Assembly (NCBI RefSeq): GCF_023554555.1
Contig: NZ_JAMJWC010000001.1
Location: 1,922,001-1,986,000 of the forward strand
DNA length: 64,000 bases
From: Sphingobacterium sp. lm-10
GTDB lineage: Bacteria > Bacteroidota > Bacteroidia > Sphingobacteriales > Sphingobacteriaceae
Direction: 5' to 3'
The notes under the pieces were generated by a model. That model saw only the letters and a program-made list of their open reading frames with translations. It made no database searches and was not told the DNA's origin. Each line of letters begins with the position of its first letter. Position 1 is the first letter of the stretch. Positions 21,249 to 37,394 of this stretch are shown in pieces. A program made the translations under genes and the position numbers.

Positions 21249-22487
21249 TTATTCCGGAGACTGCCAATGCCGCTTGAATAACCGTCGCTTGATATGCAAA
21301 CGTAAATAAAGATAAAATCCGAGCGATATCAAAACTCCACAGGTTCCCATAATATATAACGTATTTTTCAAACCCGCTGCCTGCGCCACGCTGCCAATCA
21401 GTAAACTTCCTATGGGGAATATCCCCTGAAAAGCCATGATATAATACGACATCACACGAGCTCGATAGGCTGGTATTGCATGTGTCTGTATATAAGTATT
21501 AATAGACGAGTTTTGCATCATCATACCAAAAGCAACACATGCGGTAAACAACAATGCTGAGGGCAAATAGTGCGCATAGGCAAGAAAGAGCAAAGCAATC
21601 CCCATAATTCCGGCCGAAAACATGACTCTGTAGCGAAGATTCTGCCCCGACTTAAGTCGCGCCATATTTACAGCACCGATCATTGCGCCTAAGCCAGCCA
21701 TACTTTCGAACCAAGAGAACGTCGCTTCATCACCATTAAAGAGCTCACGCGCTACCGCAGGCAACAGCGAGGTATAAGGAATCACCAGAAGACTAGAACA
21801 TGTTAGTACAATAACGAGAGAAGCAATGTGCGGCGAACGTCTAAGGTAGTCAAATCCCTCCACCAGGCCTTCCCAGGTCGTTTCTTTTTTGTAAGTGAAA
21901 GTCTGTTCCGTAACACGCATAAGCATCAAACAAATAATCACCGGAATAAAACTCAGGAAGTTTACGCCGAAGCAAAATAATTCACCATATGTGCTCAATA
22001 AAATCCCCCCTATTGCTGGACCAACCATTCGGGCAGCATTAAAAATAGAGGAATTTAAGGCAATGGCATTCGGCAAATCCTTTTTATCGTCGACCAGTGA
22101 GACCATGAGAGACTGTCTCCCTAAGACATCGAACGCATTAATAACGCCCTGCATGAATCCCAAAATTGATAACAACAATACAGATTCCAAACCAAGGTAA
22201 ACTAAAAGCGTGAGTAATCCTGCCTGCAACATCAACCCAAACTGCGTTTTTCTGACCAAATCATATTTCTTCCTTTTATCGATGAAAGAACCAATGAATG
22301 GAGACAAAAACAGTGATGGAGAGAGAGAAATAAAGGATACGAATCCCAACCAGAAGACGGAGTTGGTCAGCGAATACACCATCCAACTAATTGCTACACG
22401 TTGCATCCATGTGCCCATTAGAGAAATAGCTTGTCCAATGACATGAAGCCTGAAATTGGGGTATTGCAACGATCTAAAAATATTCAT
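21249..22487 (-). CDS. MFS transporter (MFS_3/EntS-like)
   Basis: The 412-residue inner-membrane protein shows about 12 hydrophobic segments and starts [13 protein letters not shown], followed by [17 protein letters not shown], which is characteristic of the MFS_3 group (enterobactin exporter EntS and relatives). It probably exports a small molecule by proton antiport. It is a single gene, convergent with the retropepsin and divergent from the transaldolase gene. Substrate unknown. Confidence 0.85.
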
Positions 22488-22545
22488 CTATCAAGATATG
22501 GTTCGAATTTAAGAATTACCTTTTACTGTTTGTCTTTTTTATGGT

Positions 22546-22553
22546 TAACTTTG
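22546..22553 (+). promoter_or_regulatory. -7 box of the transaldolase gene
   Basis: TAACTTTG matches TAnnTTTG and lies 63 bp upstream of the ATG at 22617. It also shows that the longer frame from 22431 is not the gene start. Confidence 0.55.
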
Positions 22554-22616
22554 GAACAACTAACCCGTTTGTTAGTTTTCCAATATCATAATACACTAAA
22601 AATCAAGACATCGAAT

Positions 22617-23276
22617 ATGAAGTTTTTTATCGACACGGCAAACCTGGAGCAAATTAAGGAAGCGCAGGATTTGGGCGTATTGGATGGTGTAACCACCAAC
22701 CCGAGCCTTATGGCTAAAGAAGGTATTTCTGGACAGGAAAACATCTTGAATCACTACAAAGCAATCTGCGATATTGTGGATGGCGACGTTAGTGCAGAAG
22801 TGATCGCTACTACCTATGATGAGATGATCACAGAAGGGGAAGCACTAGCCGCACTAAATGCTAAAATAGTGGTAAAAGTACCTATGATCAAAGACGGTAT
22901 TAAGGCCATTAAATACTTCTCAAACAAAGGCATCAAAACCAATTGCACCTTGGTATTTTCTGCTGGTCAAGCATTGCTTGCGGCAAAGGCTGGAGCGACT
23001 TATGTATCTCCATTTATCGGCCGCCTAGACGACATCTCTGTAGATGGTTTGGCGCTCATTGAGGAGATCCGTTTGATCTATGACAACTATGCTTTCGAGA
23101 CGCAAATTCTAGCGGCATCTGTACGCCACAGCGCACATATTTTGGGCTGTGCTAAACTAGGTGCAGACGTGATGACCGGACCACTTTCGGCGATGCTTTC
23201 TTTATTGAAACATCCCTTAACTGATAGCGGACTTGCTCAATTTTTGGCAGACTATAGTAAGGCTGCTGGTAAATAA
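22617..23276 (+). CDS. fsa: Fructose-6-phosphate aldolase / small transaldolase
   Basis: The 219-residue protein is the short transaldolase/FSA type of the pentose phosphate pathway. Visible motifs are [27 protein letters not shown], the Schiff-base lysine segment [23 protein letters not shown] and [10 protein letters not shown]. The frame could extend 62 codons upstream to 22431, but that would overlap the divergent MFS gene and cross a promoter box, and the family starts exactly at the ATG at 22617. Whether it acts as transaldolase or aldolase is not decidable by eye. A terminator follows. Confidence 0.92.
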
Positions 23277-23301
23277 TATTTGCCCTATATTAGGGCGCTG
23301 T

Positions 23302-23339
23302 AAAACCGTTGTCATAACCCATGGCAACGGTTTTTTTTT
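23302..23339 (+). terminator. Terminator of the transaldolase gene
   Basis: AAACCGTTG (23303-23311) and CAACGGTTT (23325-23333) form a 9-bp stem followed by nine T. It begins 26 bp beyond the stop. Confidence 0.9.
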
Positions 23340-23367
23340 GCACTTATAATACGTACTTTTATACCGT

Positions 23368-23823
23368 ATGAAAGACGAGCAGACAGGCCTTACAGGCGCA
23401 ACAGATATAGCGGGTTTCAAAACCTTACTTCGGGAAAACAAACTGAAAGTAACCCAACCAAGGTTACGTGTTTTGGAGATCATTTCTGCAAAACAAAGGG
23501 CAATATCACAACCTGAATTGGAAAAATTACTCGGGAAAGAAACTGACAGAGTGACGCTATATCGGATTCTAGCTAGCTTCGAGGAGAAAGGAATATTACA
23601 TAAGATTTTCGACTTACACGGTACCGCTACCTATGCTACTTGCTCACACCATTGCACAGAACACAAACACGAAGACCAGCATATACACTTCATATGTTCG
23701 TCTTGCAACAGCGTAATTTGCCTAGAAGAAATTTCGATTCCTAATATCAAAGTTCCCAAGAATTTTGCTTTGCAATCTGTCGCAGTGAATGCTGTTGGAC
23801 TTTGTGATAAATGCCAGCAATAA
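23368..23823 (+). CDS. Fur family transcriptional regulator
   Basis: The 151-residue protein has the Fur winged helix (LRENKLKVTQPRLRVLEII... DRVTLYRILASFEEKGIL) and a C-terminal dimerisation domain with metal-site residues: a His-rich stretch HHCTEHKHEDQHIHFIC, and the paired cysteines CSSC and CDKC of a structural zinc site. Which metal or signal it senses (iron, zinc or peroxide) is not clear; the Cys-pair and short His cluster fit a Zur- or PerR-like protein as well as Fur. It stands alone between two terminators. Confidence 0.88.
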   Translation: MKDEQTGLTGATDIAGFKTLLRENKLKVTQPRLRVLEIISAKQRAISQPELEKLLGKETDRVTLYRILASFEEKGILHKIFDLHGTATYATCSHHCTEHKHEDQHIHFICSSCNSVICLEEISIPNIKVPKNFALQSVAVNAVGLCDKCQQ

Positions 23824-24246
23824 ACTAATCCACATTCAAAACCACACCATTGAGATTCATCAAAAACAGTCAAGTAAAAATTTTAGCAAAATAAAATTAA
23901 AACATTGAATTTTAAATATTTAAATAATTTATTATAATATATTTATTTACATAAAAAAATTTAGCAAAGCCATCATATACTGATGGCTTTTTCATTTAGT
24001 TGCCACAATCAGTAAGAACTCATATTATAAACACATAAAATTTAGCAAAAAAATATATAAATACCTAAAAATGAAATACATAATTAAGCTAAAATAATAA
24101 TTTTATTTACATAACAAATCGCCCTCTCCATCCCCTACCCTTACACCTTGTATATGCCAAAAAAAAAGGTTACCTTAGAGTATATACGGGCGATATACAT
24201 CAGCTATTTGCGAGATCAGGTCGTTCTAATAATTTGACACAAAACA
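23824..24246. other. AT-rich intergenic region with short repeats
   Basis: This gap before rnr is strongly AT-rich and contains no ORF. TTTAGCAAA occurs three times in direct orientation (23882, 23960, 24041), about 80 bp apart, and TTTATTTACATAA occurs near 23941 and 24102. A hairpin at 23966-23992 is listed separately. The rnr promoter must lie in the last part, though no clean TAnnTTTG box was found. Confidence 0.5.
23966..23992 (+). terminator. Hairpin terminator between fur-like gene and rnr
   Basis: AAAGCCATCA and TGATGGCTTT form a perfect 10-bp stem around a 5-nt loop, followed by TT. It is 142 bp beyond the regulator stop, so a transcript with a long 3' UTR would end here. Confidence 0.7.
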
Positions 24247-26376
24247 ATGAAAAATAAAACAGACAAAATCTACAAAGACGTTTTTACAAAACTGATCGTG
24301 GAGATTTTTGAAAAAGGAAATAACAAGCCACTTAACTATAAACAAGTAGGCGCAAAGCTAAGCTTGGAAGATGATGAGGCAAAAGAGGCGATACGAGACA
24401 TCTTGTCAGACAAATCTAAAAATGGATTATTTGTTCAACATGACCGAGGCAAGTTCAAACTTAAATCAGAGCAGGCGTACATCACTGGAAAAGTAGACAT
24501 GACTGCCGACGGATCGGCGTTCATCGTTCCAGAAGATTCACAAGATGGAGACATCTTTGTAGCCCCGAGAAAACTACGCCAAGCCCTACATGGAGACATC
24601 GTAAAAGTACACGTTTTCGAACGCAAGGGAGGCCGCAAAAAAGAAGGAGAAGTAGTAGAGATTTTGCAGCGTGCCAAGACCGATTTTACAGGTACTATTG
24701 ACGTTTCTGGAAGTTATGCTTTCTTCATGGCTGACGACCGAAAGATGCATCATGATATCTTTATTCCGCTGGATAATCTGAACGGTGCAAAGAATGGAGA
24801 AAAGGTATTGGTCTCGATTTTGGAATGGCCAAAAAGCGCCAAGAATCCTATCGGAATTGTGAAGAACGTATTGGGCAAAAAAGGTGAAAACAATACTGAG
24901 ATGAATGCCATCTTGGCCGACTATGGTTTCCCATTAAGTTTCCCCAATGATGTGGAAGAAGAGTCCAAGAATATCTCCACAGAAATCAGTTCTGAAGAGA
25001 TCGCAAAACGACGTGATTTCAGATCAAAAATTACCTTCACTATTGACCCTGTTGACGCAAAAGATTTTGACGATGCTATCTCCTTCGAACGACTGGAAAA
25101 TGGCAACTATGAAATCGGTGTTCACATCGCGGATGTATCCCATTACGTGATCCCAGATTCTCCGTTAGATAAAGAAGCTTTTGACCGCGGCACTTCGGTA
25201 TATCTGGTAGATCGTGTGATCCCGATGTTGCCCGAGCGCTTATCCAACAACCTCTGCTCACTTCGTCCAAAGGAAGACAAACTTTGTTTCTCGGCTGTAT
25301 TTGAATTGAACGACCAAGCGCAGATTCAAAACGAATGGTTTGGTCGCACCGTGATCCATTCCGACCGTCGCTTCTCCTACGAAGAAGCTCAGGAAGTGAT
25401 TGAAAATAAAGCCGGAGATTTCTCAGAAGAAATTCTTAAGCTGAATGAACTGGCATACATCCTGCGCGAACGCAAATTCAAAAGCGGCGCCATCAGCTTC
25501 GAGTCCGAAGAAGTGAAATTTCACCTCGACGAAAACGGCAAACCTACCGGTGTGTATACCAAAGTCCGTAAAGATGCGCATAAGCTAATTGAAGATTTCA
25601 TGCTATTAGCCAACAGACGCGTGGCTGAATTCATCGGAAAGCGTGGTAAAGGAAAGAATAAGCCGACCTTTGTGTATCGTTTTCACGACGTACCAAAACC
25701 CGATGCTCTGGCCTCCTTCTCGCAATTCGCTTCGCGATTTGGACATAAAATGAACACAAAGACAGACAAAGAGACCGCCAAATCGCTGAATGCACTGATG
25801 ACAAAAATTGAAGGGCAAAAAGAGCAAAACATACTGACCTCGCTAGCGGTACGCTCGATGGCTAAGGCGATCTACACCACCAAACATACTTCGCATTATG
25901 GATTAGCCTTTGATTACTACACACACTTCACCTCCCCTATTCGTCGCTACCCGGATGTGATGGTTCATCGTCTGTTGCAATTCTATCTAGATGGTGGCGA
26001 ACAAGTAAATCCAGAACATTACGAAAAGCTATGTGAGCACAGCTCTCAGATGGAAAAGAAAGCCGCAGAAGCAGAGCGTGCATCTATTAAGTATAAGCAA
26101 GCAGAATTCCTGCAAGATCAGATTGGAAGAGAATATACGGGTTTGATCTCTGGCGTAACAGAATGGGGCATGTATGTAGAGATTGAGGAGAATAAATGTG
26201 AAGGTATGGTGAGGCTACGCGACATCAATGACGACTTCTATACTTTGGATGAAAAGAATTATGCCATTATAGGCCAGCGCAAGAAAAAGGTATATCAACT
26301 GGGCGATGAAGTGCAGATCAAGGTAAAGAAAGTAGATTTAGAAAAACGGCAAATCGACTTTACACTGATCACCTAA
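24247..26376 (+). CDS. rnr: Ribonuclease R
   Basis: The 709-residue 3'-5' exoribonuclease degrades structured RNA. An N-terminal winged-helix-like region is followed by cold-shock/OB domains (about 75-210), the RNB catalytic domain with the metal-binding DPVDAKDFDD (267-276) and YTHFTSPIRRYPDVMVHR, and a C-terminal S1 domain (about 625-705, GLISGVTEWGMYVEI). Length is normal for the family in this phylum. It is a single-gene unit with a strong hairpin downstream. Confidence 0.95.
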   Translation: MKNKTDKIYKDVFTKLIVEIFEKGNNKPLNYKQVGAKLSLEDDEAKEAIRDILSDKSKNGLFVQHDRGKFKLKSEQAYITGKVDMTADGSAFIVPEDSQDGDIFVAPRKLRQALHGDIVKVHVFERKGGRKKEGEVVEILQRAKTDFTGTIDVSGSYAFFMADDRKMHHDIFIPLDNLNGAKNGEKVLVSILEWPKSAKNPIGIVKNVLGKKGENNTEMNAILADYGFPLSFPNDVEEESKNISTEISSEEIAKRRDFRSKITFTIDPVDAKDFDDAISFERLENGNYEIGVHIADVSHYVIPDSPLDKEAFDRGTSVYLVDRVIPMLPERLSNNLCSLRPKEDKLCFSAVFELNDQAQIQNEWFGRTVIHSDRRFSYEEAQEVIENKAGDFSEEILKLNELAYILRERKFKSGAISFESEEVKFHLDENGKPTGVYTKVRKDAHKLIEDFMLLANRRVAEFIGKRGKGKNKPTFVYRFHDVPKPDALASFSQFASRFGHKMNTKTDKETAKSLNALMTKIEGQKEQNILTSLAVRSMAKAIYTTKHTSHYGLAFDYYTHFTSPIRRYPDVMVHRLLQFYLDGGEQVNPEHYEKLCEHSSQMEKKAAEAERASIKYKQAEFLQDQIGREYTGLISGVTEWGMYVEIEENKCEGMVRLRDINDDFYTLDEKNYAIIGQRKKKVYQLGDEVQIKVKKVDLEKRQIDFTLIT

Positions 26377-26442
26377 GCAATCAATATCAAGAAGCATGCA
26401 CGGATAATTTTATACAGTTACCGTTTGATAGGATAGAAAATA

Positions 26443-26475
26443 AGAGACGACCTCCTGGCGCAGGAGGTCGTCTCT
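26443..26475. terminator. 15-bp-stem hairpin between rnr and mprF
   Basis: AGAGACGACCTCCTG, the loop GCG and the exact complement form a 15-bp stem. A T-rich stretch follows on the minus strand, so it probably stops the mprF operon as well as rnr. Confidence 0.8.
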
Positions 26476-26547
26476 GTAAGGAGTAATCCGATCTGCGACA
26501 AATCTTTGAGATATAAATTCTTCTAATTTATTTTGACAGATCTCATC

Positions 26548-29163
26548 CTAATCCTTCATCACGTTTTTTAAAGCCTGTGGTATGCCGAACAATTGGAGAT
26601 CATCGGAGTACAAAAGATATACATTCTGCCAAATGGGATGATACTTTTCTTTGAATTCCCGAAGCCCCTTATAATGACCATATCTCGAAGCATGCTCATA
26701 GGCAAACTTGATAACATGCTCTCCGACGCCTGAAGCCTTATCTAGCCCAGACATCGGTGCCATACCAAGGTTTACATACCTAATATCTCTTTCCTGAAAA
26801 TAGCGAAACATTTGAAGGATTAGCCCATCCATAGCACCATTGGGAGCAGTATTCTTTTTACGGATAAGATCATAGGTTCCTTCATTGAAAACATAATCAG
26901 GAATAATGTTCAGAAATGCGAACACCTCACCATCACGCTCCAACACAATCACATCATTACGGGCGACTTCATGCCTAACAAACATTCCCTCCGCGAAGAG
27001 CATTTCCGTCTTTCCATTCTCATGTAGCCACGATTCTGAAACTTCTTCTAAGCGATCCACCAAATCTGCTGATAATGGTGAAGGGTAAATATTCAAAACA
27101 TAACCGGTAGATTTTAACTTGTTTACAGCATTTCTCAACGACTTCTTTTCTTTGCCATCCAGAGAAAAATCATGAAGATCGACTATTGCTTCCTGTCCTA
27201 AAAAGAATCGCTTCCTACCCATCTCTTCAAAAAGCCCAAGATCTTTCTCTCCCACTCGATAATAGACCGCAGAATAACCTAGCCCATTGCAGTAATCTTC
27301 AAACTCTAACAGACATTTTTTACTCTCCGTTACATCAATAGCAACAGGTTTTTCCAGGACCACGGCAAACCTGCCCGAAATCTTGAATGATATAAATGCT
27401 TTTTTATTGGCCGACCAAAAGAGCTGTTTATCCCAGTAATATTTGAAGTAATCTATGGCGCTTGCTCCATATTTTTGCGTAAAAGCAATTGCTTCATCTA
27501 GCAGTTGACTTCTTGCCCATTTCGTTTGAGAAAGCCAGGACTTAAATACCGTATATAATAGGAAAGAAAAAAATGTGAAGCCCAACAGGTTTATAGATTT
27601 CAAAAACATGCGACCTGAAGAATCAAGATATACCATATCATTATCCAAAAGGAAAAACTCGCGAATGGTATACACCAAAGACTCGTACCATGTAAAATCC
27701 CTCTGGAAATGGGCCGGGTTCATCAGATAAAATCCAAGCATACCATACACTAATATCATAGCCATACAGACACCCAATGTCAGAAAATTTCCTTTTGTAT
27801 GCCAAGAAGTTGCTCCTTTCACAAAATATTGCCTACGGGTCACCAATAAACAAAAAAGCACAATTAGTGACAGCGCCGCCTCTTCATAGTCATAGGCCTT
27901 TAAGAGGTTTCCAACGACTGAGACGAAACATAAAAGACATGCAAATATCCAAGCACTGCGCTGGGCACGCAATAGAAATAGACCCGTCCCTAACATAAAA
28001 ATACCTGTTGCAAAAACCAGGAAGTTGGAAGCATGTGAAATATCTATTGAGATGAAACCCCGAATAATCCGTATTCTTTCCACAATTGCAGGTGTCAGTA
28101 CTGATAGGATATTGATAATACCAGACAGCATCAATAATACAGAAGGAACGATTCTCAATACAATTTTATTCCAAGGCAAAACAAAAGCAATCACTCCTGC
28201 CAGCAAAGGCAACCAGAATTCGAAAACTCGGTACAACATTGTCATGGAAAGTGCTGCACCTTGATCATACCCAAATTTGGCAAGAAGGAAAGCCATAGAT
28301 AGCTCAACGGCGCCCAGACCCCGCAAAAAAGGAGATATCAGCATAAAAATAACTGCAACGACGTAGCCGATTGCAGCTGCCATAAAAAGAGGCGCTACCC
28401 CAAGTGCCTTCATAGCTATATAAAGATGTCCGATGCCACACAATTCTACCAATATGCTGTAAAAAATGGTCAAAAATATATACCGCCGTTCGAGTAGACT
28501 GCTGGAAGCATCTTCCAAAATGGTGCGAAGTACAGGAAGTTTGTCCTCCAGCCAATCCTTTAAAGATCCGCCTTGGCGAATAGCACGATAGCCAAGTAGA
28601 ATTCCTAGGGTAAGTAATAGCGTCAATGCTAGTGCAAGCCAGGATGTCCAACCAAGCGATACATAGAAAAAAGCACTAATAAATGCAGGTATGGCCACGA
28701 GCAGAATGGATACGATCCCCGCAAACCCGTATAAAGCAGATGCCATACGGATACTAGATTTGCTCACGCCCTTTTTCTCCAGCGGTTGCCCAAAAAAAGC
28801 GAGAGAAGAGACACCGCCTGCCGGCAAAAACACACTGGCAAGATTTCTTTTCAGAAAAAGAGCTGCCATATCGGAAATGTTCGTATTAGAACGGGTGGCC
28901 TTGAACGCCATGCGGTACATCATGGCCTGTACAAAAATGTATAGTACGGCCAAAGCAATTCCGCTACAAATCCAGTACGGATTTGATTGGCTGAGCATTT
29001 CTGGAACATGGCTCAATTCTGATTTTTCATGCCTGAAGAACCACCACACCAAAATAATGCATAGTAATGAAAAGGATACTTGAATTATTTTCGAGCCATT
29101 GTCCTTTATGGCAAGCCATGATCTCATTCTAACTAAACTATATCCGGTTTTGAAAAGAATCAT
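26548..29163 (-). CDS. mprF: MprF-type phosphatidylglycerol aminoacyltransferase/flippase
   Basis: The 871-residue inner-membrane protein combines an N-terminal multi-helix flippase region (about 20-340, UPF0104-like), further membrane helices to about 540, and a C-terminal soluble DUF2156 domain (about 550-865) with RKNTAPNGAMDGLI and YVNLGMAPMSGL. Such proteins transfer an amino acid from aminoacyl-tRNA to phosphatidylglycerol and flip the product outward, lowering negative surface charge and raising tolerance to cationic peptides. It is the last gene of a three-gene operon behind mgtA and a small membrane protein, 15 bp after the latter. Whether lysine, alanine or another amino acid is used cannot be read here. 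Confidence 0.87.
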   Translation of the reverse strand: MILFKTGYSLVRMRSWLAIKDNGSKIIQVSFSLLCIILVWWFFRHEKSELSHVPEMLSQSNPYWICSGIALAVLYIFVQAMMYRMAFKATRSNTNISDMAALFLKRNLASVFLPAGGVSSLAFFGQPLEKKGVSKSSIRMASALYGFAGIVSILLVAIPAFISAFFYVSLGWTSWLALALTLLLTLGILLGYRAIRQGGSLKDWLEDKLPVLRTILEDASSSLLERRYIFLTIFYSILVELCGIGHLYIAMKALGVAPLFMAAAIGYVVAVIFMLISPFLRGLGAVELSMAFLLAKFGYDQGAALSMTMLYRVFEFWLPLLAGVIAFVLPWNKIVLRIVPSVLLMLSGIINILSVLTPAIVERIRIIRGFISIDISHASNFLVFATGIFMLGTGLFLLRAQRSAWIFACLLCFVSVVGNLLKAYDYEEAALSLIVLFCLLVTRRQYFVKGATSWHTKGNFLTLGVCMAMILVYGMLGFYLMNPAHFQRDFTWYESLVYTIREFFLLDNDMVYLDSSGRMFLKSINLLGFTFFSFLLYTVFKSWLSQTKWARSQLLDEAIAFTQKYGASAIDYFKYYWDKQLFWSANKKAFISFKISGRFAVVLEKPVAIDVTESKKCLLEFEDYCNGLGYSAVYYRVGEKDLGLFEEMGRKRFFLGQEAIVDLHDFSLDGKEKKSLRNAVNKLKSTGYVLNIYPSPLSADLVDRLEEVSESWLHENGKTEMLFAEGMFVRHEVARNDVIVLERDGEVFAFLNIIPDYVFNEGTYDLIRKKNTAPNGAMDGLILQMFRYFQERDIRYVNLGMAPMSGLDKASGVGEHVIKFAYEHASRYGHYKGLREFKEKYHPIWQNVYLLYSDDLQLFGIPQALKNVMKD

Positions 29164-29178
29164 ATGGACATCTACTAT

Positions 29179-29481
29179 TTATAAAAAATATAAAAATATG
29201 AAAAGGATAAGGAGCACAATGGCAACCAGAGAGATGATGAACAACGCATCTGCAATATCCTCTAGCCGGCCGGAGAGCCGGGTAGCATTTTCAGTTCGTA
29301 TAGAAAAGAAGGACAGCAGTGATGATAGAGCCAATAACAATGCTATTACGGAAGTGAACTCATCCATTATTGTCCCTTCGTGTTTATCATTCACATGCAA
29401 AGCAGTGATCACAAATAAGCAAAAACCTAAAAGATTTGCAGACGTGTTTAAAATATGTGGCGATGTTTTTGTTGTTTTCAT
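29179..29481 (-). CDS. Small three-helix membrane protein, unknown function
   Basis: From the ATG at 29481 the protein has 100 residues and three hydrophobic segments: LLGFCLFVITAL, FTSVIALLLALSSLLSFF and a C-terminal ALFIISLVAIVLLILFIF, with a charged cytosolic-type stretch RTENATRLSGRLEDIAD between the last two. An upstream ATG at 29529 would add 16 residues; the later start is preferred because the protein then begins with a short basic head before the first helix. I do not recognise the family. It sits between mgtA and mprF with short spacings, so it is probably translated with them. Confidence 0.65.
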   Translation of the reverse strand: MKTTKTSPHILNTSANLLGFCLFVITALHVNDKHEGTIMDEFTSVIALLLALSSLLSFFSIRTENATRLSGRLEDIADALFIISLVAIVLLILFIFLYFL

Positions 29482-29558
29482 CAAAATCAGAGTAAATAAT
29501 ATTTTCGATTTTTGAAAATATATGGGCATTAGATTTTGGTAGTTCCTTTATATCTAAA

Positions 29559-32117
29559 TCAATATCCGGGAGCCACTTTCCTATAAAACCACCTTTTAAC
29601 ATAATCCGCTATAAGAACATATACCGCCACAATAAGCAACATATAGATATAGAATTGGATTGGAAGCGCTACGAATCCAAACACACTTCCTAAAGGGGTA
29701 AGAGGCAATATCAATACAGTAATGATAATTAATAAATTTGCAAACAGCAGAGCCCACCCTGGTTTACTTTTAAAGAACGGCAGGCGAGTACGCATGACCA
29801 ATACGATCAGAGAGGCAGATACTACGGACTCTAAGAACCAGCCTGTCTGGAATTGCTGTTCATTGGCTCGGAGCACTAAAATCAATAGACCAAACGTACA
29901 AAAATCAAATAGGGAGCTGAGCAGTCCAAAAACAAACATAAACTTTTTGATAAAGCCGATATCTATCCGATGTGGAGAATTAATATACTCTTCATCGACA
30001 TTGTCAGTAGCGATTGTTGTTTCGGGAACATCTGTGAGCAGATTGGTCAGTAGTATTTGCTTGGGCAATAATGGGAGGAACGGGAGGATTAGCGAAGCGC
30101 CTGCCATACTAAACATGTTGCCAAAGTTAGCACTGGTAGCCATAAAAATATATTTCATCGTATTGGCGAACGTCCTTCTGCTTTCCTTAACACCATTGAT
30201 GAGTACTTCCAAATTCTGATTCATCAGCACCAGATCAGCAGCTTCTTTTGCAACATCAACGGCAGTATCTACAGAAATACCCACATCCGCCGCATGAAGT
30301 GCCGCTGCATCATTAATGCCATCTCCCATGAAACCAACTACGTTCTTTGACTTCTTAAGCGCCAAAATGATTTGTTCCTTTTGGCTGGGTTCTACCTCTG
30401 CAAAGATATCAGCCTGCAAAACCGCTACTTGAATCGCCTCGCTGCTCTTTTCTCTTAAAGACTCTCCACTAACTACGACCGGATTTAGTATACCCACCTG
30501 TTTGGCAAGGCTCTCTGCAACTAAGGCATTGTCTCCGGTAATTATTTTCAGCTTCACCCCCAATTTTTCCAGGTTTGCAATCGCAGAAATCGCACTTTCC
30601 TTAGGCGGATCATAAAAGGTTACAAAACCGAGAAATACCATATCCTCTTCTATTTGCTTACTTATGGCAGCATTATCTATGATTCTGTAGCAAAGCCCGA
30701 GTGTCCGATAACCTTCCTTGCTATATTGTTCGTACAAGTCTAAGAGACTAGATTTTCTATCATCAGATAAATCTGCAATATTTTTAGGGCCGACCTGTAC
30801 CCGCTTACATATAGAAAGGATCTGTTGGAAAGCACCTTTTGTAATAAGAGTAGTATTTTCATCAACAACGGCGCCTATACTCAGCCGTTTACGACTAAAA
30901 TCATACGGCACTTCCCCCAATAATTCGGGTAGTTGAAAATTGCTTTGCGCAAAAACATCTATGATTGCCTCATCTATTGGATTCTTAAATCCCTTCTGCA
31001 TTACTGCATTGAAAAATGCGTACCGACTAACCTTTTCATCATCTACTCCATCAAATCCAAATGCTTTGTACAATTTCACCTTTCCCTCTGTGATTGTACC
31101 TGTCTTATCCGAGCAGAGAACATTCATACTTCCAAAGTTTTCAATTGCCGAGAGTCGCTTAACAATTACTTTCTGTATAGCCATTTTCTTGGCTCCTGAG
31201 GCAAGGTTTACCGTGATAATTACAGGCAACAGTTGAGGCGTGAGACCCACAGCCAGAGCCAATGAAAAAAGAAAAGAGTCCAGAATAGGTTTATGCAACA
31301 ATACGTTGAACGCAAAAATAATGAGTATCAAGACCAGTGTAATCTGCATCAACATGTAGCCGAATTTTTTGATTCCCACCTCGAATTCCGTTGCAGGAGC
31401 GTTATGTTGAAGGCGATCCGATATCTTACCAAACTCCGTAGACATTCCCGTAGAAACTACAATTACGGATGCCTTTCCACTGATAACATGCGACCCCATA
31501 AATAACATGTTGGAACGTTTCGAAACAGAGGTATCCTCCGCCAACACTCCTGCTTGTTTTTCTACCGGATAGCTTTCACCCGTAAAGGCTGCCTCGTCGA
31601 CAAAGAGATCTTGGGAATTCATTATGATACAATCAGCCGGAATAATATCACCGGCAGAAAGAACCACTATGTCACCACGAACAACTAAAGCCGTTGATAA
31701 TGACATCACATCACCTCCTCGAACGACCTTTACAGTCACCTGAACAAGTTTCAATAACTTAGCGACAGCATTCGAAGCTCCATACTCCTGCCAGAAGCCT
31801 AAACAACTACTAACCAAAACAATAGACAAAATAATAATTGCGTCTGTCCTGTCTTGAAGTAAAAATGACAAGATGGCGGCAGCGATGAGTATCAGGGTGA
31901 TTGGACTTTTAAACTGTTGCAGAAACAATAAATAAGCGCTGGTTTCACTTTTATTGCTTAGGCTGTTCGGGCCATAAATAGCCAATCTAGACGCGGCCTC
32001 TTCTTCTGAAATACCTCCCTGTGCTGAATTAAGTTCGGTTAATAGCTCCTCTACAGACCTTGCCCAATAGGAAGATAATTGCGAATGGCTTGGTTCCTTG
32101 TTTGCATTCTTCAGCAT
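29559..32117 (-). CDS. mgtA: Magnesium-translocating P-type ATPase
   Basis: The 852-residue P-type ATPase resembles the MgtA/MgtB group, which imports Mg2+ across the inner membrane. It has the actuator motif TGES (179-182), phosphorylation motif CSDKTGT with Asp337, the transmembrane-4 motif GLTPQLLPVI (about 291-300) and the hinge GDGINDAAALHAADVGI, plus about ten membrane helices. It is slightly shorter than E. coli MgtA (898). A TAnnTTTG box lies 34 bp upstream, so the 5' UTR is too short for a Mg2+ riboswitch. It heads an operon with a small membrane protein and mprF. Confidence 0.93.
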   Translation of the reverse strand: MLKNANKEPSHSQLSSYWARSVEELLTELNSAQGGISEEEAASRLAIYGPNSLSNKSETSAYLLFLQQFKSPITLILIAAAILSFLLQDRTDAIIILSIVLVSSCLGFWQEYGASNAVAKLLKLVQVTVKVVRGGDVMSLSTALVVRGDIVVLSAGDIIPADCIIMNSQDLFVDEAAFTGESYPVEKQAGVLAEDTSVSKRSNMLFMGSHVISGKASVIVVSTGMSTEFGKISDRLQHNAPATEFEVGIKKFGYMLMQITLVLILIIFAFNVLLHKPILDSFLFSLALAVGLTPQLLPVIITVNLASGAKKMAIQKVIVKRLSAIENFGSMNVLCSDKTGTITEGKVKLYKAFGFDGVDDEKVSRYAFFNAVMQKGFKNPIDEAIIDVFAQSNFQLPELLGEVPYDFSRKRLSIGAVVDENTTLITKGAFQQILSICKRVQVGPKNIADLSDDRKSSLLDLYEQYSKEGYRTLGLCYRIIDNAAISKQIEEDMVFLGFVTFYDPPKESAISAIANLEKLGVKLKIITGDNALVAESLAKQVGILNPVVVSGESLREKSSEAIQVAVLQADIFAEVEPSQKEQIILALKKSKNVVGFMGDGINDAAALHAADVGISVDTAVDVAKEAADLVLMNQNLEVLINGVKESRRTFANTMKYIFMATSANFGNMFSMAGASLILPFLPLLPKQILLTNLLTDVPETTIATDNVDEEYINSPHRIDIGFIKKFMFVFGLLSSLFDFCTFGLLILVLRANEQQFQTGWFLESVVSASLIVLVMRTRLPFFKSKPGWALLFANLLIIITVLILPLTPLGSVFGFVALPIQFYIYMLLIVAVYVLIADYVKRWFYRKVAPGY

Positions 32118-32150
32118 GGTTTATCGAACTGAAATTTCAAATGTTACAAC

Positions 32151-32158
32151 CAAATTTA
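32151..32158 (-). promoter_or_regulatory. -7 box of the mgtA operon
   Basis: The minus strand reads TAAATTTG, matching TAnnTTTG, 33 bp before the mgtA ATG. Confidence 0.6.
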
Positions 32159-32359
32159 TGAAAATAATTTTTTAATAGTTACGATTCCATTTTAAAAATA
32201 AATGAGAAAAAATTACATGTGTTGATAGAGGAGGAAAGGTATTCTTCTAATCACGAACGCTTATTATTATAAATCACCAAAAGCTCATGTAGAATAACAA
32301 ACCATCTTATTAGATCTAAGTAGATCCATTTCACGCTGATCAATTAAATACATAGCAAT

Positions 32360-32388
32360 AAAGCCAGATCTAATATAGATCTGGCTTT
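32360..32388 (-). terminator. Terminator of the lipoprotein gene
   Basis: AAAGCCAGATCT and AGATCTGGCTTT form a perfect 12-bp stem around AATAT, 25 bp beyond the stop of the minus-strand lipoprotein gene. Confidence 0.75.
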
Positions 32389-32413
32389 ATCATGTAACCC
32401 TAAATAAATAAGT

Positions 32414-32818
32414 TTATTGCTTATTTCCCTTGAAAGTAAATAAAACTTCACCTTCTGCCATAGGAGCAGATTGGTAGATTACACTCTGCTCTCTGACATC
32501 GTATATAAAGTCGCCTCCTGTAGAAATTGATGCAGATTGAATAGCTATATTAGCGTTGTTGGTAACATTAAATTCGCGATCAGGTAAATTCAACGAAGCG
32601 TCACCCACCTTCACCCTAATTCTCTCGTTAGAAACTTTGGTCACGACAATCGTTTGATTAAATCTTGCATCTTGTCCGGTAACCTCCAAACTCCCCTGAA
32701 AAGTACCCACAGCCGCATCAATACTACCTCCCGAAGGACTATTATCATCTTTAGAGCATCCAACGAATAAAAATGCCACTAGCGCCAACACAATGGCGGA
32801 AACCCAAGTACTTTTCAT
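32414..32818 (-). CDS. Hypothetical lipoprotein
   Basis: The 134-residue protein starts with a lipoprotein signal (MKSTWVSAIVLALVAFLFVGC, cysteine 21) followed by the charged SKDDNSPSGG linker typical of Bacteroidota surface or periplasmic lipoproteins. The rest is predicted beta-rich (repeating alternation such as FNQTIVVTKVSNERIRVKVGD), a layout seen in small lipocalin-like or calycin-like proteins. I do not recognise a family. It is a single gene, divergent from the rpsL operon. Confidence 0.75.
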   Translation of the reverse strand: MKSTWVSAIVLALVAFLFVGCSKDDNSPSGGSIDAAVGTFQGSLEVTGQDARFNQTIVVTKVSNERIRVKVGDASLNLPDREFNVTNNANIAIQSASISTGGDFIYDVREQSVIYQSAPMAEGEVLFTFKGNKQ

Positions 32819-33127
32819 AGTTTTAATAGATAATGTTTAAATTTTATAATTTATTGTGCTATTCGCAAAATATGTGCCAAATAAATACAATAATGGTAAA
32901 GAAAAACATTTTAGCAATATAAATAATCAATTACATGTATCTAAAAAATGTGAACCTCACCATGCGCTAATAAGCTAGGTGTCATATATAATTTATGTTA
33001 GGCTCCTCTTGGCAACGAAAAAACATTCAAACTTTCTTCACTAACTATTTAATATTCAAATGGAAATAAGTATCTTTGCGGACTTTAAAAATTAATTTTA
33101 AACGAATTAAAAAACTAGAACAGGTAA
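32819..33127. other. Intergenic region upstream of the str operon
   Basis: It separates the divergent lipoprotein gene and rpsL. It holds the rpsL -7 box at 33071 and, nearer the lipoprotein, a near-consensus box for that gene around 32866 (CAAAATAT on the plus strand). No ORF or other structure was seen. Confidence 0.5.
33071..33078 (+). promoter_or_regulatory. -7 box of the rpsL operon
   Basis: TATCTTTG followed by CG is a full match to TAnnTTTG and lies 49 bp upstream of the rpsL ATG. Confidence 0.65.
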
Positions 33128-33541
33128 ATGCCTACTATCCAACAATTAGTTAGAAAAGGTAGAGTAGCTCTGGTTGACAAGAGTAAGTCACCAGCGTTGG
33201 ACTCATGTCCACAGCGAAGAGGTGTATGTACACGTGTATATACTACTACCCCTAAAAAACCAAACTCAGCAATGCGTAAAGTCGCTCGTGTCCGTTTAAC
33301 AAACGGTAAAGAGGTGAATGCCTACATCCCTGGTGAAGGCCACAACTTACAAGAGCACTCGATCGTGTTAATCCGCGGTGGTCGTGTGAAAGATTTACCA
33401 GGTGTACGTTACCACATTATCCGTGGTGCGCTAGATACATCCGGTGTAGCTGGACGTAACCAACGTCGTTCGAAATACGGAACAAAACGTCCTAAACCAG
33501 GACAAGCGGCAGCAGCTCCTGCAAAAGGCAAAAAGAAATAA
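33128..33541 (+). CDS. rpsL: 30S ribosomal protein S12
   Basis: The 137-residue protein carries the strongly conserved S12 motifs [33 protein letters not shown] and [14 protein letters not shown]. It forms part of the decoding centre. The lysines in TPKKPN and RVKDLPG are the wild-type residues at the classical streptomycin-resistance sites. It is the first gene of the str operon and lies 19 bp before rpsG. Confidence 0.98.
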
Positions 33542-33560
33542 TTAAACGGAGGAAATTAAA

Positions 33561-34028
33561 ATGAGAAAGTCAAAACCAAAAAAGAGAATCATTTTACCTG
33601 ATCCGAAGTTTAATGACGTTCAGGTAACGCGTTTCGTAAATAACATGATGTTCGACGGTAAGAAATCTATCGCGTACTCTATCTTTTACGATGCAGTAGA
33701 ATTAGTAGAGCAAAAAACACAAGAGAGCGGTCTTGAAGCTTGGAAAAAAGCATTGAACAATGTGATGCCTGCCGTAGAGGTAAAATCACGTCGTGTAGGT
33801 GGTGCTAACTTCCAAGTTCCTATGGAAGTTCGTCCAGATCGTAAAATCGCTTTGGGTATGAAATGGTTAATCTCTTACGCTCGTAAACGTGGTGAAAAAA
33901 CCATGTTCGAAAAACTAGCAGGAGAAATCATCTCAGCTTCTAAAGGTGAAGGTGCAGCTGTAAAGAAGAAAGAAGATACGCACAAGATGGCGGAAGCTAA
34001 CAAAGCGTTCTCACACTTCAGATTCTAA
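33561..34028 (+). CDS. rpsG: 30S ribosomal protein S7
   Basis: The 155-residue protein starts [17 protein letters not shown] and contains [21 protein letters not shown], the S7 signature. It is an assembly initiator of the 30S head. A GGAGG Shine-Dalgarno-like site (aacggaggaaatt) lies just upstream of the ATG, unusual among the genes here. In other bacteria S7 represses its own operon at the mRNA level; hairpins in the following gap could serve something similar. Confidence 0.98.
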
Positions 34029-34058
34029 CTGTGAAAACTAGCAGAATCTAATAAGGCA

Positions 34059-34103
34059 TACGCCGGCTTTGACATCTCGCAAGGGTTTGACAAAGCCGGT
34101 GTA
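34059..34103 (+). promoter_or_regulatory. Hairpin between rpsG and fusA
   Basis: TACGCCGGCTTTG (34059-34071) pairs with CAAAGCCGGTGTA (34091-34103), a 13-bp stem with one G-U pair, followed by CTTATTT. It may be an attenuator, a processing site or a partial terminator separating S12/S7 from EF-G expression. Confidence 0.65.
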
Positions 34104-34160
34104 CTTATTTAAAAACATTGAACAACAATACAGGCATAGGCCTATCGCTTTAAAATTATT

Positions 34161-36284
34161 ATGGCAAGAGATTTAAGATTAACTAGAAATATCGGTATCG
34201 CTGCCCACATCGATGCTGGTAAAACTACGACAACAGAGCGTATTCTATACTACTCTGGCGTAAACCACAAAATCGGTGAGGTACACGAAGGTGCATCGAC
34301 CATGGACTGGATGGAGCAAGAAGCAGAACGTGGTATCACGATCACTTCAGCTGCGACGACCGTATTCTGGAACTACCGCGATAAAAAATACCAAGTAAAC
34401 GTTATTGATACACCAGGTCACGTGGATTTTACCGTAGAGGTAAACCGTTCTTTGCGCGTATTAGACGGATTAGTGTTTTTATTCTCCGCAGTGGATGGAG
34501 TAGAGCCACAGTCAGAAACTAACTGGCGCTTGGCGGATAACTACAAAGTGCCTCGTATCGGTTTCGTCAACAAAATGGATCGCTCTGGTGCTGACTTCTT
34601 GAAAGTGGTTGGCCAAGTAAAATCCATGTTAGGATCTGATGCAGTAGCATTACAATTGCCTATCGGAGCAGAAGATACATTCACTGGTGTAGTTGACTTG
34701 ATTAACAACCGTGGTATTGTATGGAATGAGCATGATAAAGGAATGACCTTTACCGAAGTGCCAATTCCTGATGATATGTTGGATGAAGTAGCTGAGTATC
34801 GTGAAAAATTATTAGAAGCGGTAGCTGGTTATGATGAGACTTTGATGGAGAAATTCTTCGAAGATCCTAATTCCCTAACAGAACGCGAAATCTTAAATGC
34901 ATTGCGTGCAGCCGTTTTAGATAACTCCATCGTACCAATGGTATGTGGTTCATCTTTCAAAAACAAAGGTGTTCAAACCATGTTGGATCTAGTGATGGAA
35001 TTATTGCCTTCACCAATGGATTCAGAAGGTGTTAAAGGAACTCATCCTGACACGGGCGAAGAATTAGTGCGTAAGCCAGATGTGAAAGAGCCATTCGCAG
35101 CATTAGGTTTCAAAATCGCTACTGACCCATTCGTAGGTCGTCTATGTTTTATCCGCGCTTACTCTGGTAAGTTAGATGCAGGTTCTTACGTCTTGAACAC
35201 ACGTTCAGGCAATAAAGAGCGTATCTCTCGTATCTTCCAAATGCACGCGAACAAACAAAACCCTATCCCACAAATCGAAGCGGGTGATATTGGTGCTGTA
35301 GTTGGTTTCAAAGACATCAAAACAGGTGATACTTTATGTGATGAAAAACACCCTATCGTGTTAGAGTCTATGAACTTCCCTGAGCCAGTTATCGGATTAG
35401 CTATTGAGCCTAAAACGCAAGCTGATATGGATAGATTGGGTATCGGTCTTGGTAAACTAGCGGAAGAGGATCCTACATTCGTTGTAAAAACGGACGAAGA
35501 AACTGGTCAAACAGTAATCTCTGGTATGGGTGAGCTTCACTTAGAAATCTTGATCGACCGTTTGAAACGTGAATTCAAAGTAGAGGTAAATCAAGGAGCT
35601 CCTCAGGTATCTTACAAAGAGTCTATCAACGGTACTACAGAACACCGTGAGGTATTCAAGAAACAATCTGGTGGTCGTGGTAAATTCGCGGATATCAAAG
35701 TGGTTATCTCTCCAGCAGACGAAGATTATGACTTAACAAAGTCACCACTTCAGTTTGTCAACGAAATCGTGGGTGGTAAAATCCCTAAAGAATTTATCCC
35801 TTCTGTTCAAAAAGGATTCGAAACTTCGATGGTAAACGGTGTATTGGCCGGCTACCCATTATCAGGCATGAAAGTTCGTTTGATTGATGGATCATTCCAC
35901 GCAGTCGATTCAGACTCTCTATCATTCGAACTAGCTGGTCGCCAAGCATATCGCGAGGCATTGCCAAAATGTTCTCCAGTATTGATGGAGCCTATCATGA
36001 AAATTGAGGTATTAACTCCAGAAGAGAACATGGGTGACGTAATGGGTGACTTAAACCGTCGTCGTGGTCAGATGCAAGGTCTTGATTCTCGTAATGGTGC
36101 ACAAGTAATCAAAGCGTTAGTACCACTTTCTGAAATGTTTGGTTACGTAACGCAATTGCGTACCATTACTTCTGGTCGTGCAACATCTACTATGGAGTTT
36201 GATCACTATGCAGAAGCTCCGCGTAACGTCATGGAAGATGTAATCGCGAAATCAAAAGGTAAAGTTAAAGGATCTGTAGAATAA
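34161..36284 (+). CDS. fusA: Elongation factor G
   Basis: The 707-residue translocation GTPase has the G1 loop [23 protein letters not shown] and NKMD in the GTPase domain, followed by the usual domains II-V (for example [19 protein letters not shown] and [19 protein letters not shown]). Length is normal. It lies third in the str operon with a 132-bp gap before it that contains a hairpin. No tuf gene follows, as is common in Bacteroidota. Confidence 0.98.
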
Positions 36285-36306
36285 TACAGCCTTTCAAAAT
36301 AAACCC

Positions 36307-36340
36307 GATCGCCAGTTGTTAATAGCTCTAATTGGCGATC
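36307..36340 (+). promoter_or_regulatory. Hairpin between fusA and rpsJ
   Basis: GATCGCCA (36307-36314) pairs exactly with TGGCGATC (36333-36340), and ATTTT follows. The position between two cotranscribed genes suggests an attenuator or processing signal. Confidence 0.6.
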
Positions 36341-36365
36341 ATTTTAAACAATTAAACAACATACA

Positions 36366-36671
36366 ATGAGCCAAAGAATCAGAATCAAATTGAAATCTTA
36401 CGATTACAACTTGGTTGACAAATCAGCTGAGAAAATCGTAAAAACAGTAAAACCTACAGGTGCTGTAGTAAGCGGACCTATTCCATTGCCTACAGAGAAA
36501 AAAATCTATACCGTTTTACGTTCACCACACGTTAACAAAAAAGCGCGTGAGCAGTTCCAATTAAGTGCTTACAAAAGACTATTGGATATCTACTCTTCGA
36601 ACTCTAAGACTGTTGACGCATTGATGAAACTTGAATTGCCTTCAGGCGTTGAAGTGGAAATCAAAGTGTGA
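36366..36671 (+). CDS. rpsJ: 30S ribosomal protein S10
   Basis: The 101-residue protein starts [20 protein letters not shown] and contains [25 protein letters not shown], the S10 signature. It belongs to the 30S head and also acts as NusE in antitermination. In many Bacteroidota it is followed by rplC and the rest of the S10 operon; here a strong terminator and an unrelated sigma factor gene follow instead. Confidence 0.98.
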
Positions 36672-36694
36672 TCGATTTTCAATCTGAAAAAACT

Positions 36695-36725
36695 AAAAGC
36701 TTCCAGTCCAACTGGGAGCTTTTTT
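36695..36725 (+). terminator. Terminator closing the str operon after rpsJ
   Basis: AAAAGCTTCCAG pairs with CTGGGAGCTTTT (one mismatch) around a 5-nt loop, followed by T-rich sequence, 23 bp beyond the rpsJ stop. Confidence 0.88.
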
Positions 36726-36794
36726 CGTATATAGGTATTTGCAGTTTGTAACAAATATTATATATATTTATCACTACGTAATTATAAACTACTT

Positions 36795-37394
36795 ATGCAG
36801 ACCTGCGATCTAACCAATCAAACGCTGCTGTCCTTGTTAAAAAAAAGCGATCACGGCGCATTCGAAGAGATTTACCGGCGCTATTGGCGATCACTATTCA
36901 GGCAGCTTCATGCTAAATCCGGTAATATGGAATTAGCCGAGGAGCTGACGCAAAAAATCTTCGTCTCCCTTTGGGAACGGCGAGCAGAACTGAATATTCA
37001 ACACCTACCCTCCTACCTCGACGCGGCAGCGCGCTTTAGCTTCATCAATCATATCAAATCGGTGATCAAGGCAGAACGTTTTGCCCACTTTAAGAAATCA
37101 GAAGATGATCCGCAACAGCAAAACAACTGTATTGACCCGCTTTCTGCTAAAGAACTAATGGGACAATTATACGACGGATTAAAACAATTACCGCCCAAAA
37201 CTAGGCAGATTTTTGTGATGAGCCGAATTGAATACCAATCTGTCAAAAAAATTGCCCACGCTTTACAGCTCTCTGAAAAAGCGGTCGAATACCACATTAC
37301 GAAATCCTTAAAAGCATTACGCATAGTATTGCGCGATTACCTAACCATAGGTGCGCTCACCATTTGGATCAGCGCACCTTATCTATTTTCCTGA
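36795..37394 (+). CDS. ECF RNA polymerase sigma factor (FecI-like)
   Basis: The 199-residue protein has sigma region 2 (about 15-85, FEEIYRRYWRSLFRQLH and ELTQKIFVSLWERR) and region 4 (about 130-185, QLPPKTRQIFVMSRIEYQSVKKIAHALQLSEKAVEYHI). The hydrophobic tail is usual for the Bacteroidota branch. It should direct transcription of the SusC/SusD genes that follow when released by the FecR-like anti-sigma factor encoded next. The fecR gene starts 126 bp downstream. Confidence 0.92.
   Translation: MQTCDLTNQTLLSLLKKSDHGAFEEIYRRYWRSLFRQLHAKSGNMELAEELTQKIFVSLWERRAELNIQHLPSYLDAAARFSFINHIKSVIKAERFAHFKKSEDDPQQQNNCIDPLSAKELMGQLYDGLKQLPPKTRQIFVMSRIEYQSVKKIAHALQLSEKAVEYHITKSLKALRIVLRDYLTIGALTIWISAPYLFS

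Follow-up and report, generated by a model that had tools for sequence, protein, structure and literature searches.

A candidate membrane partner of MprF in an apparent operon with an MgtA-like ATPase in Sphingobacterium sp. lm-10

Introduction

What brings the genes for an MgtA-like ATPase, a 100-residue protein with three helices and MprF together in one apparent operon? This question is raised by a stretch of contig NZ_JAMJWC010000001.1 of Sphingobacterium sp. lm-10 (positions 1,922,001 to 1,986,000), which comprises 64,000 nucleotides and is called the window here. MprF attaches an amino acid to phosphatidylglycerol and flips the product, which lowers the negative charge of the membrane, and it influences how resistant many bacteria are to cationic peptides. 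An earlier reading of the sequence alone had connected the three genes with low Mg2+ and had offered two roles for the small protein, as a regulator of MgtA or as a partner of MprF. Of these, the role as MprF partner is the better one and the role as MgtA regulator is less likely. A unit for inner-membrane or envelope stress, in which the small protein would be a membrane partner of MprF, is the explanation tentatively preferred here, as one that falls somewhat short of probable.

The small gene and mprF

The three open reading frames (ORFs) are found on the minus strand in the order mgtA-like, small ORF, mprF, with gaps of 77 bp between the first two and 15 bp between the last two, which confirms the arrangement described by the sequence-only reading. 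Across the other genomes, the small family goes with MprF more often than with an MgtA-type gene; the small-mprF pair recurs and the small-mgtA link hardly does. In the family f23, the small gene lies directly upstream of mprF on the same strand with 14 bp between the ORFs in genome G637, and in G656, which belongs to the same genus, it is followed after 10 bp by an intact mprF and then by a VirJ-family gene in two stretches. The gene order small-mprF-virJ is seen in this one genus of f23. The mprF gene of G637 is broken into two frames (G637:C8:44211-46797, locus L204).

The small gene and mprF also occur together in 5 of the 395 genomes of the class (0.34 expected), in 18 of the 201 genomes of the family (9.4 expected) and in 3 of the 24 genomes of f23 (1.0 expected, p 0.028; 2 of 23, p 0.08, without G637), and after removal of the window's genome in 4 of 394 for the class (0.28 expected, p 7e-5) and 17 of 200 for the family (9.0 expected, p 0.0013), with p-values that are all too small, as they ignore shared ancestry and the samples overlap. 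A distance below 1 kb between the two genes would be expected by chance in 0.010 of the 22 other genomes with both, and it was seen in 3, which belong to two lineages. In this respect the earlier suggestion of an MprF partner is supported, both by the direct order in f23 and by the co-occurrence of the genes.

Besides the overstated significance, several observations weigh against such a partnership. Among the 23 genomes with both genes, these lie within 1 kb of each other in only 4, namely the genome of the window, a pair from a single f23 genus and one with divergent orientation. The mprF gene is found near the small gene in only 3 of 80 GTDB loci (L071, L074, and L095; 80 of the 83 GTDB contigs carrying the small gene were kept), nearby mprF and MgtA-type genes are both lacking at most of the small-gene loci read, and DUF1003 is a commoner neighbor of the small gene than mprF. 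The small gene co-occurs with the short ATPase type as well, in 3 of 394 class genomes (0.39 expected, p 0.005; 2, p 0.045, without G625, the protein of which clusters with classical MgtA), and therefore mprF is not its sole link. Moreover, mprF and this ATPase type are found together in none of the 394 class genomes besides the window's (0.22 expected). Finally, the G+C content of the mgtA-like and mprF genes shows no sign of foreign origin.

The neighborhoods of the small gene bear on a strong rival explanation, in which its product serves as a general membrane protein of envelope or ion stress without a fixed partner, drifting among stress clusters (DUF1003, DUF347, MgtC, MgtA-like, MprF). 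This role is quite possible. It fits the diversity of the neighbors: a DUF1003-cluster gene, the commonest one, is directly adjacent in 12 of the 93 small-gene loci with a called ORF (Pfam was run on cluster members; L006 and L071 are one stretch, and L099 and L100 are near-identical), of 68 neighbors scanned from 108 co-directional ones, 4 were DUF347 and 2 were MgtC genes (a single stretch seen twice), and the one plasmid relative, a distant copy in Fibrella, has DUF1003/chloride-channel genes on one side and, on the other, a VIT1/CCC1 gene close to metal efflux. Within g14, the largest genus, a fixed other context surrounds the small gene, consisting of the clusters c1 and c2, which we read as AI-2E-transporter-like and MazG-like. 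A protein without a fixed partner, however, would not lead one to expect that the small gene directly precedes mprF in a second family, nor that the two co-occur beyond chance.

In Daejeonella (L071; genome G114, locus L220), a small-DUF1003 pair is divergent from mprF at a distance of 273 bp. The Lutibacter locus L074 has the order mprF-DUF1003-small, with one gene between mprF and the small gene, and in the Bacteroidales locus L095 DUF1003-small is followed by two genes and then by mprF. At L220:4204-10100, the genes of a P3A-type ATPase, an MtfA-like protein and MprF are consecutive and divergent from small-DUF1003; at L095:4116-7481, a 1121-aa protein with polysaccharide-deacetylase and glycosyltransferase regions is encoded between the small gene and mprF.

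The other role offered earlier, regulation of the MgtA-like ATPase by the small protein in the manner of MgtS and MgtR, which act on MgtA in enterobacteria, is improbable. The small gene adjoins the ATPase gene in the window and co-occurs with the ATPase type as given above, one further locus from a Saprospiraceae metagenome-assembled genome (MAG; L034) has the order small-mgtA, and transmembrane peptides modulate MgtA (PMC13174805, in the part of the text available). But L034 is the only one of the 109 other small-gene loci with an adjoining MgtA-type gene (some of these loci are non-independent, and 29 have a flank of only ~1.5 kb), and it is likewise the only one with an adjoining small gene among the 14 other ATPase contexts read (L034 and 11 more clade members; L145, a fragment; and L187, placed on the classical side of the ATPase tree). 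In the remaining 13, the small gene and mprF are both absent from the stretch read around the ATPase. The known regulators are also shorter than 50 aa (PMC10925321, available part), compared to 100 aa and three helices for the small protein. Distant P-type ATPases with 23–28% identity are found near the small gene at L049 and L071.

The small protein and its family

The small ORF encodes 100 aa from an internal ATG, and a longer in-frame start is present at position 29529. The shorter form agrees with the conserved N-terminus of 68 relatives, an agreement that is only partly independent, as the starts of the relatives were set to the ATG nearest the expected place. With 62% mean column identity and seven invariant columns, the alignment of the 69 sequences indicates a real gene family. 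The gene was found in 43 of the 201 genomes of the family (one with an internal stop) and in 15 of the 395 genomes of the class (one broken), and judged by the sequences collected the protein belongs to a broad, unannotated family of Bacteroidota. Three loci labeled Streptomyces, Sulfuricurvum, and Spirochaetia (L055, L081, and L096) carry the small gene as well; these are probably mis-binned MAG contigs.

No Pfam or NCBIfam model matched the small protein of the window over its curated cut-off, and six members searched singly against the family models were all under the cut-offs. The best E-value among the family matches listed for the 69 members was 1.4e-4 (DUF2254, Pox_A14). At E-values of 0.1 or lower, 28 of the 69 matched DUF2254, with residues 1–58 in five of the six members searched singly, and a kinship to it is a lead only. 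The AlphaFold2 model (pLDDT 75.8, pTM 0.59) has helices at residues 7–31, 37–62, and 69–99. The best PDB match by sequence had an E-value of 0.11, and Foldseek gave no match to the model at E 0.001 or better. In the structural comparison, NINJ1 (9bia_A) came first both by Z-score (12.1, the next unrelated row having 10.5) and by TM-score (0.77 for one chain), with a root-mean-square deviation of 2.6 over 97 residues. In Foldseek, NINJ1 had E 1.3 and was preceded by DgkA chains at E 0.67. The resemblance to the ninjurin fold is within the range common for helical bundles.

MprF

The MprF of the window carries both expected domains, the flippase transmembrane domain (PF03706, E 1.4e-24) and LPG_synthase_C (PF09924, E 7.2e-60). 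Its score with the equivalog model NF033480 is 530.4 and thereby below the cut-off of 600, as is the case for two other MprF proteins of Bacteroidota (477 and 560). Compared to solved chains, it reaches 165 bits with the lysyl-phosphatidylglycerol (lysyl-PG) synthase 4v36 and 89 bits with the alanyl-PG synthase 4v34, and LpiA is its best match among the named full-length solved chains. The amino acid attached by this MprF is, by sequence similarity, probably lysine.

A VirJ-family hydrolase gene follows mprF directly in 10 of the 12 other mprF contexts read (L214–L218, L221–L223, L225, and L226). Beside the mprF of the window, such a gene is absent. The genome carries another mprF, and a VirJ-family gene stands at a distance of one gene from it.

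The MgtA-like ATPase

The ATPase passes TIGR01524 (751.5 bits, cut-off 610.75) and is below the stricter NF011702 (710.5, cut-off 975); the classical paralogue of the genome scores 1267 and 1299.9, respectively. In a tree of 34 sequences, it is found in a 13-member clade beside classical MgtA (support 0.956) and therein in a subclade of five (support 1.0). Residues are given in the numbering of E. coli MgtA (PMC10925321). The site I residues D780, N709, S776, and S813 are kept (own D738, N667, S734, and S767), as are D738 of E. coli MgtA and the phosphorylated D373. Substituted are E331 in transmembrane helix 4 (TM4; Q295), Q741 in TM6 (E699), and D441 (G), so that an acid is lost from TM4 and one is gained in TM6. 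All five rows of the subclade carry the pair E331Q/Q741E, which is missing from each of the other 28 (27 distinct genes); there, the E331 position is occupied by E in 26 and by A in 2. According to the part of the source available, Glu331 is required in E. coli MgtA as judged by alanine substitution, and the D441 alanine mutant grows poorly at low Mg2+ (PMC10925321). We infer from these residues an MgtA-clade pump with a rearranged ion path, which presumably moves a cation.

The low-Mg2+ premise of the sequence-only reading is weakened by the missing TM4 glutamate and by a second, classical MgtA in the genome, encoded in a separate mgtC-mgtA pair behind a two-component system. At this ordinary Mg2+ locus, the genes for a response regulator, a histidine kinase, MgtC, and classical MgtA are consecutive (L146:3231-9002, equal to G000:C1 ~1183–1189 kb).

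A response of the unit to acid or proton stress in place of low Mg2+ is unlikely. MprF homologues are inducible by low pH, and the solved full-length relatives include the low-pH-inducible LpiA. The ATPase lacks the TM4 acid and keeps the TM6 Asp, a P3A proton-pump type gene stands two genes after mprF in the Daejeonella stretch (L220; 654 bits with TIGR01647, over the cut-off), and three ATPases of the subclade score 480–504 bits with the proton-pump model, compared to 414 for the classical MgtA of the genome. However, L034 from the same wider clade reaches only 413 with this model, and for the ATPase of the window the TIGR01524 score is far above that of TIGR01647. D780 and its partners N709, S776, and S813 are kept; in the proton pump of L220, by contrast, the D780 position is occupied by C and that of E331 by V.

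Universal-stress (Usp) genes over the Pfam cut-off are located near window-type ATPases at L179, L180, L181, L186, and L187; the Usp gene near the ATPase of L185 is below it.

Insertion site and the genus

The genus sample consists of 93 genomes including that of the window, and matches were accepted at E up to 1e-100 for the MgtA type and up to 1e-60 for MprF. An MgtA-type match was found in 38 and an MprF match in 45 of the 93 genomes, and the mgtA-like and mprF genes are side by side in one, the window's own. A conserved mgtA-small-mprF operon was therefore rejected; relatives whose genes are not neighbors, which the sequence-only reading had itself named as speaking against its proposal, exist in the genus.

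A search of 40 genomes of the genus, that of the window among them, found the gene rnr, which is located downstream of the unit, in every one. A lipoprotein gene or rpsL follows it within ~1.5 kb of flank in 16 of the 29 other rnr loci, and what comes after rnr varies among the congeners. In the closest relative by RNR (G224, 94% identical), the order at this site is rnr, a 92-aa GNAT gene, the lipoprotein gene, and rpsL, and the genome has no match to the mgtA-like or MprF proteins at the thresholds given. The unit may have been gained as a block in this lineage or lost in the relatives. The third-position G+C content (GC3) of the mgtA-like and mprF genes is within one standard deviation of that of the window, and the small gene has a lower G+C content (0.376 vs. 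0.422). With regard to base composition, the two large genes are inconspicuous and point neither to a direction nor to a source of the gain or loss.

A chance meeting of three functionally unlinked genes at an insertion-prone spot next to rpsL would account for the single side-by-side case in the genus, for the variable content after rnr and for the fact that mprF and the ATPase type are not together elsewhere in the class sample. It is less easily reconciled with the three further genomes from two lineages in which less than 1 kb separates the small gene from mprF, and is improbable.

A model of the unit

As the simplest reading of the gene order, a role as MprF partner can be outlined as follows. 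The three genes would be transcribed together as a unit that serves under inner-membrane stress; it would have been acquired as a block, with rnr on one side and the lipoprotein-rpsL genes on the other, or lost from relatives. MprF would couple phosphatidylglycerol to an amino acid (probably lysine) and flip the lipid, so that the negative charge falls. Judged by gene order and co-occurrence, the 100-aa protein may sit beside the helices of MprF and help or limit lipid transfer or flipping. The ATPase would pump a cation in parallel with MprF for two reasons: a cationic lipid and the pumping of cations would both counter one surface-charge or ion stress, and pumps of the MgtA type are responsive to anionic lipid; cardiolipin activates the MgtA of E. 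coli (PMC13174805, PMC4758953, available parts). A P3-type pump near mprF and the small gene recurs in Daejeonella, where it is of the P3A type. A further-reaching version, in which a dedicated family of MprF partners and an MgtA-clade pump with its acid moved from TM4 to TM6 make up a self-contained module of lipid charge and cation pumping, is rather doubtful.

Locus layout and transcription signals

The features of the locus are listed in Table 1. The unit is flanked by a lipoprotein gene upstream and by the convergent rnr downstream. A TAnnTTTG box, which we take to be the Bacteroidota-type -7 consensus, is located 41 bp upstream of the mgtA-like ATG. With 67 such boxes in the window (both strands), the background is 0.17 per 320 bp of one strand. 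The coding strand between 29160 and 29600, which spans both internal gaps, contains none, and together with the short gaps this suggests a single transcription unit. The stricter -33/-7 pattern had no match at the unit, and sigma-70 promoters were discarded (24 sites vs. 19.9 in shuffles). No Rfam family matched at its gathering score in 22000–37000, which together with the short leader possible from the -7 box speaks against an RNA leader before the mgtA-like gene. The hairpin scan gave 5 hits in total vs. 5.6 in shuffles and hence no excess, so that the two flanking hairpins are favored by their length alone.

Table 1. Features at the three-gene locus (positions in the window)
Feature	Position	Strand	Remark
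mgtA-like P3-type ATPase	29559..32117	-	852 aa; sister clade of classical MgtA
Small three-helix membrane protein, candidate MprF partner	29179..29481	-	100 aa; undescribed Bacteroidota family
mprF, two-domain aminoacyl-phospholipid synthase/flippase	26548..29163	-	871 aa; best solved match is lysyl-PG synthase
-7 box TAAATTTG (TAnnTTTG), possible promoter of the three-gene unit	32151..32158	-	pattern match
Terminator-like hairpin after mprF, 15 pairs, T-rich tail	26443..26475	-	hairpin scan
Terminator-like hairpin between upstream lipoprotein gene and unit, 17 pairs, T-rich tail	32356..32392	-	hairpin scan

Comparison with known systems

The ATPase matches the P3B-type Mg2+ ATPase MgtA (8uy7) with 580 bits over residues 23–847 and shares its catalytic D373 and D738 and the site I residues. 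It differs by its length (852 aa vs. about 900), by its position in a sister clade, by the exchanges at E331, Q741, and D441, and by the presence of an mgtC-mgtA pair elsewhere in the genome. As a natural experiment, the E331Q/Q741E pair bears on the question of which acidic residues are needed by an MgtA-type pump. Like MgtS and MgtR, the small protein is a small membrane protein adjoining the gene of an Mg2+-type pump, but with 100 aa, three helices and a location seldom near an MgtA-type gene it is set apart from them by size and context.

The MprF of the window resembles MprF and LpiA in its LPG_synthase transmembrane and C-terminal domains, with 4v36 as best solved match, and differs by a score under the NF033480 cut-off and by the lack of a VirJ-family gene beside it. 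In the available parts of the literature searched, no small membrane partner of MprF stood out. The lpiA-acvB operon of Agrobacterium has been described (PMC13197417, available part), and AcvB, a relative of VirJ, hydrolyses lysyl-PG (PMC13197417, PMC13135905, available parts). The combination of an mprF-type gene and a VirJ-family hydrolase gene is likewise found in f23 and at many Bacteroidota loci. In contrast to the Agrobacterium operon, f23 has the small gene in front, and the window is without the hydrolase gene. The small-mprF-virJ order of f23 is a natural system for testing an MprF partner.

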